From NCBI GenBank assembly GCA_040757115.1, contig JBFLYA010000108.1:1-13360 (forward strand): a stretch of DNA of 13,360 nt, read 5' to 3'. The position numbers were made by a program, and so were the translations under genes. The first letter of the stretch is position 1; every line of letters starts with the position of its first letter. Origin of the DNA: a bacterium (GTDB taxonomy: Bacteria; UBA9089; CG2-30-40-21; SBAY01). The notes beneath the pieces are model-generated. The model was given only the letters and a program-made list of their open reading frames with translations, was not told the DNA's origin and did not search any database. Of this stretch, positions 1,375-10,441 are shown one piece after another.

Positions 1375-1428
1375 GTAAAATTTAAAAAAAAATTAACTTT
1401 TCTGTAACTATTCAGCATACCAAGCAAG

Positions 1429-1450
1429 TAGGAAGTAGGAAGTAGGAAAG
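1429..1450. repeat. Heptamer array GTAGGAA x3
   Basis: Three tandem GTAGGAA units lie just inside the left end of the 1404-1949 element. The complementary words (TCCTACT, TTCCTAC) recur at 1593-1615 and 1904-1935, so the element interior can fold on itself. Confidence 0.8.
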
Positions 1451-1462
1451 GGGGAAAATACT

Positions 1463-1892
1463 TCATACTATTTTACTCTTAATTGATTTGATTAAACCTA
1501 TAAGCATCCTACTCACTTCTTCAGATATATCCCAAATGGATTGAAAATCTGGCAGATAATTAAGATCTTTAGATAGAATTAGATAATACCTTTCCTACTC
1601 TCCTACTTCCTACTTTCAGGGAAATCTCCCCCATTTCACTGACGCATTACCTTAGTTCTTCAAGAGAGCCCTGGCTTATATTATAGGCATTTAACTTATT
1701 CTTTATGCCTTGTTTCTTAAAACCTTCTGCAATATTTGCTGGAATAGAAACAGCCGCTTTGCACATCTGTTGCACCAATCCATATTTTTCTTCAGTGGGG
1801 AAGTTTTTGGTTATTTCGTATATTCTTATCACTAAATGATGGCTTTTTTGCCATACTACAAGTTGTCTAAAATCATCTAACTTCTCATTCAT
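1463..1892 (-). pseudogene. Four-helix-bundle protein gene (23S rRNA intervening-sequence protein family), interrupted
   Basis: The start (ATG at 1892, with Shine-Dalgarno GGGGAAG) gives MNEKLDDFRQLVVWQKSH and then the family-typical segment AAVSIPANIAEGF, ending after 81 residues at SLEELR plus TAA. Family members run to about 115-120 residues and continue with YYLILAKDLGY-like sequence. That missing part is present further along the minus strand (1463-1592), reading YYLILSKDLNYLP and ending at TGA after 41 codons. The two halves are separated by a 61-bp insertion; removing it restores one 122-residue frame. The family is known from open reading frames in intervening sequences of 23S rRNA genes and as stand-alone genes; its biochemical role is unclear. 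Here it is the sole cargo of a TIR element. The truncated 81-residue product might still be made. Confidence 0.85.
1593..1653. mobile_element. 61-bp insertion interrupting the four-helix-bundle gene
   Basis: The insertion lies between two copies of TACCTT (1587-1592 and 1648-1653), consistent with a short target duplication. It consists of heptamer words (TCCTACT type), then CTTTCAGGG, then a 38-bp end (1613-1650) that matches 30 of 38 positions of the right end of the element at 3484-3661 (3624-3661), including CCCCCATTTCACTGAC and the terminal CATTAC. It introduces an immediate stop codon into the gene. It is a minimal derivative of the GTAATG-ended repeat family. Confidence 0.75.
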
Positions 1893-1903
1893 TTTCTTCC
1901 CCT

Positions 1904-1935
1904 TTCCTACTTCCCTACTCTCCTACTTTCCTACA
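1904..1935 (+). repeat. Heptamer array (CCTACTT type) ending in CTACAGG
   Basis: Words TTCCTAC, TTCCCTA and CTCTCCTAC, with a period of seven, precede CTACAGG at the right end of the 1404-1949 element. Read on the minus strand the array lies just upstream of the four-helix-bundle gene and borders its Shine-Dalgarno. Confidence 0.7.
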
Positions 1936-2013
1936 GGGTGAATAGTTACACTTTTCTTACCATTTCAAATATATCATAGAATTATATAGATGTCAATTCT
2001 AAACATAGCCTGG

Positions 2014-3483: not shown

Positions 3484-3661
3484 GTAATGTCAGTCGTCAG
3501 TGGCGTGGGGGGATTAACCTGACTTTTAGAAGAAATCACGGAAACACAGAAATGATGAAACACGGAAAATTGATTTTTACTCTGTGTTTCTGTCCTTCCG
3601 TGTTTCTGTGGTAACAACTCTCATTTTCAAGAGAACGCCCCCCATTTCACTGACCCATTAC
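3484..3661. mobile_element. Candidate non-autonomous palindromic element with GTAATG ends
   Basis: The left end GTAATG-TCAGTCG-TCAGTG-GCG-TGGGGGG (3484-3512) and the right end, read on the other strand as GTAATG-GG-TCAGTG-AAA-TGGGGGG (3661-3638), are imperfect inverted repeats. The interior is one long imperfect palindrome (3537-3610). The flanks share only AACTGT/AACTAT, so no clear target duplication is seen. The right end is duplicated inside the four-helix-bundle gene (1613-1650), which shows it belongs to a dispersed family. Confidence 0.55.
3537..3610. repeat. Octamer-word palindrome (CACGGAAA/CACAGAAA and complement)
   Basis: The left arm reads CACGGAAA CACAGAAA TGATGAAA CACGGAAA. The right arm reads the complementary words TCTGTGTT TCTGTCCT TCCGTGTT TCTGTGG. 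Together they form an imperfect hairpin of about 30-bp arms. The element at 7908-8200 is bordered internally by an analogous pair built from CGCAGAGA words. Confidence 0.75.
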
Positions 3662-5055: not shown

Positions 5056-5297
5056 TATAGCAGTTATTAGTCAAAATTTTATTCAGGGTGGATAAGTAAA
5101 AAATCCCAAATCCCAAGCACCAAATCCCAAATAAGCACCAAATTCCACATACCAAAAAGCGAATTAGAGATTAGTGAATTAGAGATTAGATTTTACTAAT
5201 TCGCTAATTCGCTTAATTCACTAATTCACTAAATGGAATTTGTGATTTGGAATTTCATAGCCATATCTGGGTCAAATTCCGATTAATAAGTGCTATA
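5056..5297. mobile_element. Candidate palindromic TIR element (TATAGCA ends) between guaB3 and the epimerase gene
   Basis: The left end TATAGCAGTTATTAGTC continuing to AATTT (5056-5079) and the complement of the right end (5297-5274) agree at 20 of 24 positions. The interior is built of heptamer and octamer words that pair across the element: AAATCCC and AAGCACC words at 5101-5150 with the complementary GGAATTTG/GATTTGG words at 5235-5258, and GAATTAG/AGATTAG with CTAATTC words at 5160-5230. No unambiguous target duplication is visible, partly because the right flank is itself a word array. No protein is encoded. Confidence 0.5.
5101..5235. repeat. Heptamer word arrays (AAATCCC and GAATTAG/CTAATTC)
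   Basis: AAATCCC, AAATCCC, AAGCACC, AAATCCC follow each other from about 5103. From 5160, GAATTAG, AGATTAG, TGAATTAG, AGATTAG are followed by the complementary CTAATTCG, CTAATTCG, CTTAATTCA, CTAATTCA. The second pair forms an imperfect hairpin. The same CTAATTCA words precede livF. Confidence 0.75.
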
Positions 5298-5351
5298 GTA
5301 GATAGTTTATAGTTGATGATAGATAGTATAGCAACTATCAACTAATTTTCA
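5298..5351 (+). repeat. Heptamer array (GTAGATA/GTTTATA) ending in TTTTCAG
   Basis: Words GTAGATA, GTTTATA, GTTGATG, ATAGATA, GTATAGC are followed by ACTAATTTTCAGAAGGA. TAGTTGAT (5310-5317) pairs with ATCAACTA (5337-5344). The first two words are the same as the 14-bp unit repeated five times at 10110-10179. Confidence 0.65.
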
Positions 5352-6335: not shown

Positions 6336-6365
6336 GAATAAGTTATGGCGAAACGCAGAAATAAA

Positions 6366-6397
6366 GGGACTCGGGACTCGGGACTCGGGACTCGGGA
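6366..6397. repeat. Perfect heptamer repeat GGACTCG x4
   Basis: Four exact GGACTCG units (6367-6394) plus GGA lie 31 bases after the epimerase stop. It is the most regular of the heptamer arrays in the window and should be prone to length variation. Confidence 0.9.
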
Positions 6398-6407
6398 ATA
6401 AAAGAAT

Positions 6408-6459
6408 CCCCTAACCCCGAAATCCAAATCCCGAACCCCGATTTTCAGGGGAGAAGGCT
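6408..6459 (+). repeat. Heptamer-like array (AAATCCC/GAACCCC) ending in TTTTCAGGGGAG
   Basis: Words built on AAATCC, AAATCCC, GAACCCC lead into GATTTTCAGGGGAGAAGG. This is the same word type and cap as at 275-318 and 1593-1625. Confidence 0.6.
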
Positions 6460-7137: not shown

Positions 7138-7374
7138 ATGAACTTATGGGAATCATTAGCCCTGGTAGGCACAGCGGCGACAATATTAGGGGTATTTTTG
7201 ACTGTCTATGGGGTAGTGAATAATAAAACACTAAAGAATGAAACCAAATTAACACGAGAAACAATAGAAGAAGAGGGTAAGTTGACACGAGAGATGATTA
7301 AAGAAACTACTGAATATTTAGGTAGGCTAATTGTGGCTGACGGAGATAGAACCCGTCTGGCTATGAGTAAGTAG
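7138..7374 (+). CDS. Small membrane-anchored coiled-coil protein, copy 1 (unrecognised family)
   Basis: I do not recognise this 78-residue protein. It has a five-residue N-terminus, one predicted transmembrane helix (about 6-27, SLALVGTAATILGVFLTVYG), then a charged amphipathic helix (about 30-62; LTRETIEEEGKLTREMIKET) likely to form a coiled coil, and a conserved tail LIVADGDRTRLAMSK. With no signal cleavage site and positive charge after the helix, the coiled coil is probably cytoplasmic. The ATG follows AAAAGGAGG at 10 bases. It starts 17 bases after gmhB, so it is probably co-transcribed with it. Two further copies follow in tandem. The high expression signal and strict conservation of the N-terminal half suggest a real product, perhaps a scaffold or anchor; this is inference. 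Confidence 0.75.
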   Translation: MNLWESLALVGTAATILGVFLTVYGVVNNKTLKNETKLTRETIEEEGKLTREMIKETTEYLGRLIVADGDRTRLAMSK

Positions 7375-7403
7375 AAAAGTTATCATACAGCAAATATAGA
7401 GAG

Positions 7404-7422
7404 AAGAAAGGTTATCTTTCTT
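7404..7422 (+). other. Small A/T-rich hairpin in the spacer after copy 1
   Basis: AAGAAAG (7404-7410) pairs with CTTTCTT (7416-7422) around loop GTTAT. The same hairpin is retained after copy 2 and lost after copy 3. It could cause weak termination or protect a 3' end; the stem is too A/U-rich to be sure. Confidence 0.35.
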
Positions 7423-7543
7423 TGAACCTGAAATTTGAAATTTATTCGGGATTTGGTGTCTGGAATTTGGAATTTCTGGGTGAATACCACCATCCGTCCA
7501 GTTAAAGATGTAGGTAAAGATTAGAAAAGGAGGATACAGGGAA

Positions 7544-7846
7544 ATGAACTTATGGGAATCATTAGCCCTGGTAGGCACAGCGGCGACAATATTAGGGGTA
7601 TTTTTGACTGTCTATGGGGTAGTGAATAATAAAACACTAAAGCATGAAACCAAATTAACACGAGAAACAATAGAAGAAGAGGGTAAGTTGACACGAGAGA
7701 TGATTAAAGAAACTACTGAATATTTAAGCAGGTTGAGTAAAGAAACTACTGAATATTTAAGCAGGTTGAGTAAAGAAACTACTGAATATTTAGGTAGGCT
7801 AATTGTGGCTGACGGAGATAGAACCCGTCTGACTATGAGTAAGTAG
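7544..7846 (+). CDS. Small membrane-anchored coiled-coil protein, copy 2 (expanded coiled coil)
   Basis: This 100-residue paralogue is identical to copy 1 through the transmembrane helix, apart from N-to-H in KTLKHETK, but has 22 extra residues in the coiled coil. The unit KETTEYLSRLS is present twice, followed by KETTEYLGRL. Eleven-residue (hendecad) units keep a coiled-coil register, so the expansion lengthens the stalk by two units without breaking it. The tail is LIVADGDRTRLTMSK. Shine-Dalgarno AAAAGGAGG lies 10 bases before the ATG. Its 3' spacer carries the 293-bp GTAAC element. Function unknown. Confidence 0.75.
   Translation: MNLWESLALVGTAATILGVFLTVYGVVNNKTLKHETKLTRETIEEEGKLTREMIKETTEYLSRLSKETTEYLSRLSKETTEYLGRLIVADGDRTRLTMSK
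7706..7800 (+). repeat. 33-bp tandem repeat (two full copies plus 29 bases) coding for hendecads
   Basis: Two exact 33-base units (7706-7738 and 7739-7771) and a partial third (7772-7800) encode KETTEYLSRLS repeats in copy 2. Copies 1 and 3 have a single unit. The perfect identity indicates a recent in-frame expansion. Confidence 0.93.
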
Positions 7847-8016
7847 AAAAGTTATCATACAGCAAATATAGAGAGAAGAAAGGTTATCTTTCTTTGAACC
7901 TGGAATTGTAACCGTTCAGGGGGTAATTTACCGCAGAGACGCAGAGGAACAGAGAAGATATGGAAATAAATCAGATAACAGAAAAGATTATTGGTGCAGC
8001 CATTGAAATACTTATG

Positions 8017-8051
8017 ATCTGCTTGCCGAATGTTCAGCCGGCAAGCCAGAT
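8017..8051. repeat. REP-like hairpin inside the GxxExxY remnant
   Basis: ATCT-GCTTGCCG (8017-8028) pairs with CGGCAAGCCAGAT (8039-8051), one bulge, 10-base loop. It sits where the middle of the gene has been lost. Confidence 0.7.
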
Positions 8052-8060
8052 TTGTTAATC

Positions 8061-8133
8061 CATCCCTGATTTTCATCAGGGCAAGTTTAATGTTGTTGTA
8101 CTCAAGAGCTTGCACTGATGAAAATCAGGGATG
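8061..8133. repeat. Long inverted repeat inside the GxxExxY remnant
   Basis: A perfect 19-bp inverted repeat (8061-8079 and 8115-8133) extends inward with one mismatch to 25 bp (8061-8085 with 8109-8133), leaving a 23-base loop. The right arm overlaps the remnant C-terminal codons. Confidence 0.85.
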
Positions 8134-8314
8134 TTAAGCGTATCGTAAATAAATTTTAATTTTTTCTCTGCGTCTCTGTGTCTCTGCGGTGAACGGTTAC
8201 CTGAAATTTGAAATTTATTCGGGATTTGGTGCCTGGAATTTGGAATTTCTGCGTGAATACCACCATCCGTCCAGTTAAAGATGTAGGTAAAGATTAGAAA
8301 AGGAGGATAGGGAA

Positions 8315-8563
8315 ATGAACTTATGGGAATCATTAGCCCTGGTAGGCACAGCGGCGACAATATTAGGGGTATTTTTGACTGTCTATGGGGTAGTGAATAA
8401 TAAAACACTAAAGCATGAAACCAAATTAACACGAGAAACAATAGAAGAAGAGAGTAAGTTGACACGAGAGATGATTAAAGAAACTACTGAATATTTAGCT
8501 AAATATTTAGGTGATCTAATTGTGGCCGACGGGGGTAGAACTCGTTTAGCTATGAGCAAGTAG
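8315..8563 (+). CDS. Small membrane-anchored coiled-coil protein, copy 3
   Basis: This 82-residue paralogue has the same N-terminal transmembrane helix (about 6-27) and coiled-coil start, with G-to-S in EEESKLT, a short altered stalk KETTEYLAKYLGDL, and the tail LIVADGGRTRLAMSK. In the last 13 codons it differs from copy 1 at six codons, five of them synonymous (D-to-G is the exception). So the tail has been under protein-level constraint, while the first ~180 bases are almost identical, consistent with recent duplication or gene conversion of the 5' part. Shine-Dalgarno AAAAGGAGG lies 8 bases upstream. The next gene (ugd) is about 107 bases downstream. Function unknown. Confidence 0.75.
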   Translation: MNLWESLALVGTAATILGVFLTVYGVVNNKTLKHETKLTRETIEEESKLTREMIKETTEYLAKYLGDLIVADGGRTRLAMSK

Positions 8564-10040: not shown

Positions 10041-10102
10041 AAAATGCAAAATTACAAATCAAATTCCAAAAAGGACTTCAAGTATTTTAATGCTGAAATG
10101 TA

Positions 10103-10266
10103 GTAGATAGTAGATAGTTTATAGTAGATAGTTTATAGTAGATAGTTTATAGTAGATAGTTTATAGTAGATAGTTTATAGTTGAAGGACTATAAACCATA
10201 AACTATAAACCATAAACTATAAACTATACACTATAAACTATACACTATAAACCCTAAACTATAAAC
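10103..10266. repeat. Long heptamer hairpin: GTAGATA/GTTTATA x5 and ACTATAA/ACCATAA array
   Basis: Five exact 14-base units GTAGATAGTTTATA occupy 10110-10179. From 10189 to 10266 come eleven heptamers of type ACTATAA, ACCATAA, ACTATAC. TTATAGT of the left array is the complement of ACTATAA of the right, so the region can form a large imperfect hairpin with a loop of about nine bases. Confidence 0.9.
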
Positions 10267-10441
10267 GAGTTTTGCATTTTGCTCTTTGGAGGAAATTGAT
10301 AAAAATAAAGGCTTTAAATACCCGCTTAAAAACTACAGTTTCCTGGTTTTGCAGAACTCTAATTGGGAGATAAAGAAAAAAAACTATTTACCCAATAAAA
10401 TCATTTTCTGTGGCTGAACGATTACAAAAAGGTTAATGGTG

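Follow-up and report, generated by a model that had tools for sequence, protein, structure and literature searches.

The window, by which we mean the whole 13,360-nt stretch analysed, carries a small membrane-protein-like gene three times in tandem (starts at 7138, 7544 and 8315); two spacers of 169 and 468 bp separate the copies. Three 33-bp repeats lie inside copy 2 of this array (7138-8563), and a weak Spore_YhaL match falls below the cut-off. Alignment of the spacers showed that they are nearly identical apart from a 293-bp block at 7908-8200 in spacer 2. The ends of the block, GTAACCGTTCA ... TGAACGGTTAC, are inverted at 11/11 positions. It is framed by 8-bp direct repeats identical at seven of eight bases (CTGGAATT on the left, CTGAAATT on the right), and spacer 1 reads an unbroken CCTGAAATTTGAAATTT at 7428-7435. 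The first-pass annotation had described such a block with perfect 11-bp inverted ends and an empty target site preserved next door, and direct reading bears out both points. Its arithmetic was also correct: the difference in spacer length, 299, equals 293 + 8 - 2, and the alignment displays the insertion together with the 2-base difference (GGATACAGGG versus GGATAGGG). The features are as follows, TSD standing for target-site duplication.

1404-1949, minus strand: a further element of the block's class, bounded by GTAACTATTCA, with a perfect 8-bp TSD ACTTTTCT at 1396-1403 and 1950-1957.
7428-7435, plus strand: uninterrupted target site CTGAAATT in spacer 1 (direct reading and spacer alignment).
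7900-7907, plus strand: left TSD CTGGAATT, 7/8 to the right copy (direct reading).
7908-8200, plus strand: 293-bp element, very probably non-autonomous and of IS66 type (about 30 near-complete source-genome copies; perfect 8-bp TSD in other copies).
7908-7918, plus strand: left terminal inverted repeat GTAACCGTTCA (553 exact genome copies, control 8).
7930-7954, plus strand: left inner word array ACCGCAGAGACGCAGAGGAACAGAG, corresponding to a GxxExxY-cassette end (alignment with 459- and 472-bp elements; the words flank GxxExxY genes across phyla).
7960-8010, plus strand: GxxExxY N-terminal remnant MEINQITEKIIGAAIEI (alignment to the GxxExxY genes of loci L066 and L070).
8021-8046, no strand: small palindrome GCTTGCCGAATGTTCAGCCGGCAAGC in place of gene sequence (direct reading; absent from L070 and L066).
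8061-8133, no strand: 25-nt inverted-repeat pair in the decayed gene, 8061-8085 and 8109-8133 (inverted repeat I13; alignment).
8134-8159, plus strand: GxxExxY C-terminal remnant, ..KRIVNKF-stop (alignment with relatives).
8166-8190, minus strand: right inner word array CTCTGCGTCTCTGTGTCTCTGCGGT, the left array inverted (inverted repeat I8; alignment).
8190-8200, minus strand: right terminal inverted repeat TGAACGGTTAC (direct reading).
8201-8208, plus strand: right TSD CTGAAATT (direct reading).

The element occupies the same site in the genome of a congeneric sister species (G001), and the insertion is therefore older than the species split, not recent. The earlier proposal that the block moved as a unit after the duplication fits the simplest history, with the refinement of this minimum age. 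In that history the gene was duplicated, the block inserted into spacer 2, the species separated, and G001 lost copy 1 together with spacer 1. A single gene copy precedes the element in G001, a mosaic of copy-1 leader and copy-2 body, as expected if recombination removed copy 1 and spacer 1. To the right of the element, outside the TSD, two substitutions and a 2-base indel distinguish spacer 1 from spacer 2 of the source genome (G000) and of G001. At the positions specific to spacer 1 the two spacers 2 agree with each other, which places the separation of spacer 1 before that of the two species. A rival history, in which spacer 1 once held the element as well and then lost it by precise deletion, for instance through slippage of one 8-bp repeat on the other, is improbable. 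In its favour, G001 has one gene copy before the element; if G000 duplicated that copy later and then lost the element, the same arrangement would result, and CTGAAATT is indeed common to spacer 1 and the right TSD of G000. However, precise excision requires one more event, and both the spacer 1 differences and the mosaic copy speak against it.

Exact matches to the 11-bp end GTAACCGTTCA number 553 across the 4.3 Mb of the source genome, compared to 8 for the reversed pattern used as a control in the same genome, which excludes chance. The 293-bp block itself recurs in about 30 near-complete copies, 75-98% identical, and many element copies are surrounded by perfect 8-bp TSDs at unrelated sites. 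Elements with a perfect 8-bp TSD number 41. Among 52 adjacent end pairs in a sample (115-541 bp), 19 had an 8/8 TSD. A de novo scan of 385 kb, with neither end sequence nor duplication length preset, returned 29 inverted-repeat pairs with an 8-bp TSD, 6 with 7 bp and 1 with 9 bp; 19 of the 29 start with GTAA. At least two CACAGAG-type words lie just inside 75 of 135 sampled ends, and just outside in 1. Nested insertions (L004, L011) and several size classes were seen among the copies. Exact ends are plentiful only in some members of the phylum (G000, 553; G001, 559; G008, 485; G013, 127; G003, 84), few or absent in others, and almost absent outside it. In the window, the element at 1404-1949 carries a truncated four-helix-bundle gene (TIGR02436/PF05635) at 1647-1892, flanked by AGTAGGAA-type words. 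A lone worn end, GTAATCGTTCAGCCACAGA, on the minus strand at 10407-10425 of the window is likely a relic of a related element. The motif TTTCACTGACNCATTAC, present twice in the window (1614-1650 and 3625-3661), may represent yet another type of end (GTAATGxGTCAGTGAAATGGGG); at locus L045, comparable GTAATG/GTAAGGCGTCAGT ends come with an 8-bp TSD.

The GTAA ends and the 8-bp TSD, features of the IS66 family, pointed to that family, and the assignment held when it was tested. In the source genome, one IS66 transposase gene, interrupted by two in-frame stops, lies in a 1563-bp copy (L061) between ends matching at 14/14 bp, with no TSD. Intact IS66 transposase ORFs were found in genome G065 at two loci (L119 and L143), between ends GTAAC[T/C]ATTCAGGG with an 8/8 TSD, and in a related genome (L120); a further copy is truncated (L122). 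The 11-bp end is identical in L061 and L120 and occurs in a related form in L119, L143 and L122. These transposase-bearing elements measure 1493-1563 bp and are nearly filled by one ORF, with no room for tnpA/tnpB; the domains of the transposase are PF03050, zf-IS66 and DUF6444. The fragmented source assembly yielded no intact IS66 transposase, its sole near-complete copy being the broken L061. Two divergent PF03050 loci (L131, L140) were set aside, their ends not matching.

ISDge4, a member of the ISBst12 group of IS66 observed transposing, has the ends GTGACTACTCAGCA/GTAACTGCTCAGCA, a single ORF of 449 aa and an 8-bp repeat (PMC12898284). The window element resembles this group in its GTAAC..TCAG-type terminal repeats, its 8-bp duplication and its single-ORF autonomous relatives; it differs in lacking a transposase and in having a decayed GxxExxY cassette as its interior. 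Because ends of this kind enclose IS66 transposases, and because of the resemblance to ISDge4, the block is best assigned to the non-autonomous IS66-type elements. We consider it very probable that it is a single-ORF, ISBst12-like IS66 derivative of the MITE or mobile-insertion-cassette type enclosing a decayed GxxExxY cassette. Against this stand the state of L061 and the TSDs of the block, which differ by one base in the window copy and by more in the sister genome. The description of the block as a non-autonomous transposon is supported by recurrent ends, TSDs and IS66 transposases in matching ends; the check that the first-pass annotation had suggested, for recurring ends and for a transposase between them, was positive on both counts. 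An IS66 transposase from elsewhere in the cell would act in trans on the GTAAC..TTCA ends, and would move or copy the block, presumably by a copying mechanism, duplicating 8 bp of target.

The interior of the window element aligns with relatives of 459 and 472 bp as a GxxExxY (TIGR04256) gene whose start and end are kept and whose middle is deleted. What is left amounts to about 17 N-terminal codons and short C-terminal pieces around two inserted palindromes. No GxxExxY ORF was found among the open reading frames of the window element, and no intact coding sequence for TIGR04256 or PF13366. An intact relative, L066, scored 162.6 bits against TIGR04256 (E=4e-48), and L076 scored 129.3 bits, the cut-off being 35 bits. 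L076, in the source genome, holds an intact GxxExxY gene between ends like those of the window element, flanked by a perfect 8-bp TSD, and L080 a GxxExxY gene with one stop, again in such ends and with a perfect TSD. The suggested search for other GxxExxY genes bounded in this way was therefore successful, and the earlier statement that GxxExxY is, or was, cargo can be made precise: since the gene is dead in the window copy it was cargo there, and in L076 the cargo is intact. GxxExxY genes are also found in another type of end (CRACCTGTG..) at L069 and at L075 (472-1020), the latter with a perfect 8-bp repeat AATTTTTT, which suggests that a second transposon family captured the GxxExxY cassette.

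The window element is short and transposase-free, with terminal inverted repeats and a high copy number, as are MITEs. However, its interior aligns to GxxExxY cassettes instead of deriving from a parental IS. From its sequence, it looks to work in a MITE-like manner, yet the interior seems captured and not produced by internal deletion of an IS. Bacterial MITEs such as MITECca01, derived from IS982 (PMC9769881), are likewise below 300 bp, without transposase, in high copy number and equipped with IS-family ends. They belong to another IS family and are internally deleted ISs, whereas the window interior comes from an unrelated gene cassette, and there are more ends per genome here. Behind the outer left end lies GGTAATTTACC, which looks like an older, worn end when set beside GTAACTATTCACC in L066; the cassette may have been re-capped. 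The outer end of the cassette (..TTCACCRCAGAG) and the IS66 end have TTCA in common, and a small exchange or fusion could have taken place there. In mobile insertion cassettes, the IS ends enclose a passenger gene and no transposase. The intact L076 element is alike in this respect; unlike them, its class has a GxxExxY or four-helix-bundle passenger with inverted word arrays of its own inside the IS ends.

Across phyla, GxxExxY genes lie between inverted word arrays without IS66 ends, so that the cassette may have its own spreading route. It might then be argued that the GxxExxY protein, of a PDDEXK_3 nuclease-like family, itself moved these units, the IS66-like ends being incidental. We regard this as very unlikely. 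In the source genome the 8-bp TSDs adjoin the GTAAC..TTCA ends and not the word arrays, and IS66 transposase and four-helix-bundle genes occur in the same kind of ends with TSDs of equal length. Least credible of all is that selection kept the copies for a function, as intergenic regulatory or structural elements such as a terminator or an RNA processing stem: the block is intergenic and its ends can pair as a long stem (I8, 41 nt, 78%), but perfect TSDs, nested insertions, the variety of size classes and the gene remnants in decay are marks of mobile DNA.

The word arrays around GxxExxY genes were analysed in 80 loci picked by protein similarity alone from many phyla, including archaea; these are the closest relatives of one subfamily, which the result covers best, and 75 were usable. 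On each side of the gene stands an array of about three words, ACC[A/G]C[A/G][A/G]AG and variants (CRCRRAG), the two arrays being inverted relative to each other. An inverted-repeat score of at least 13 was obtained for 48/75 loci compared to 1/274 controls at shifted positions in the same loci, and at least four words were present in 60/75 compared to 3/274. A null made of cross-locus pairs was rejected as too strict, having the same words, and was replaced by the shifted controls. None of the 75 usable loci showed an IS66-type end pair. GxxExxY genes within such pairs were found in G000, G001 and G008, and were not seen at the examined loci of G002-G007. Four-helix-bundle genes in diverse genomes follow the same plan with words that vary by cassette (21/28 compared to 1/110 controls). 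Several of them in the source genome, including that at 1404-1949 of the window, lie in IS66-type ends with perfect TSDs.

A GxxExxY cassette with clean inverted word arrays is found in Bacteroides finegoldii (L317, NZ_OY725952.1) between radA and the next gene, encoding a FAD-protein. In G001, three CACGAATT-word units surround the site corresponding to L077 of the source genome, and an aspartyl-protease-like ORF separates two of these units (L319). Tracts of inverted short words with no gene between them, at 5101-5340, 6362-6440 and 10096-10273 of the window, may be what is left of cassettes built on this plan. GxxExxY genes were rare in a plasmid collection (8 records) and absent from a phage collection at the search sensitivity used; neither collection supplied an empty site to pair with a cassette lacking IS66 ends. 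No empty sites for two source-genome cassettes were found in G001-G003. A literature search, thin on subscription journals, returned no published account of this architecture for GxxExxY, and its novelty is provisional.

A similar layout is known from 23S rRNA intervening sequences. In Coxiella, one report describes an S23-type ORF with inverted repeats and three tandem heptamers upstream (PMC4990558). The likeness lies in a four-helix-bundle ORF between inverted repeats with heptamers just upstream; unlike the elements studied here, the intervening sequences lie inside rRNA, and the description consulted mentions no IS66 ends (PMC4990558). It is quite conceivable, if a little short of probable, that widespread, so far unnamed mobile cassettes of bacteria and archaea are built around GxxExxY and four-helix-bundle (S23/IVS-type) genes. 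Each would consist of one small gene with an array of about three cassette-specific words of 7-9 nt on either side, one array inverted relative to the other, and the IS66 ends would be a secondary cap enabling hundreds of copies in this phylum.

The window thus preserves both an insertion and its empty site and gives the event a minimum age, and the transposase family can be named. One type of IS66 end fills the genome with hundreds of ends, more than half of the sampled ones around the cassette remains of one gene family. The element itself is known in kind; the word-array anatomy shared by the two gene families is the more surprising lead. It ties these elements to the old puzzle of the 23S rRNA intervening sequences. 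Given the inverted arrays across phyla, the role of GxxExxY may relate to mobility, and the function of both common families, GxxExxY and four-helix-bundle, can be posed as a testable question of mobility.
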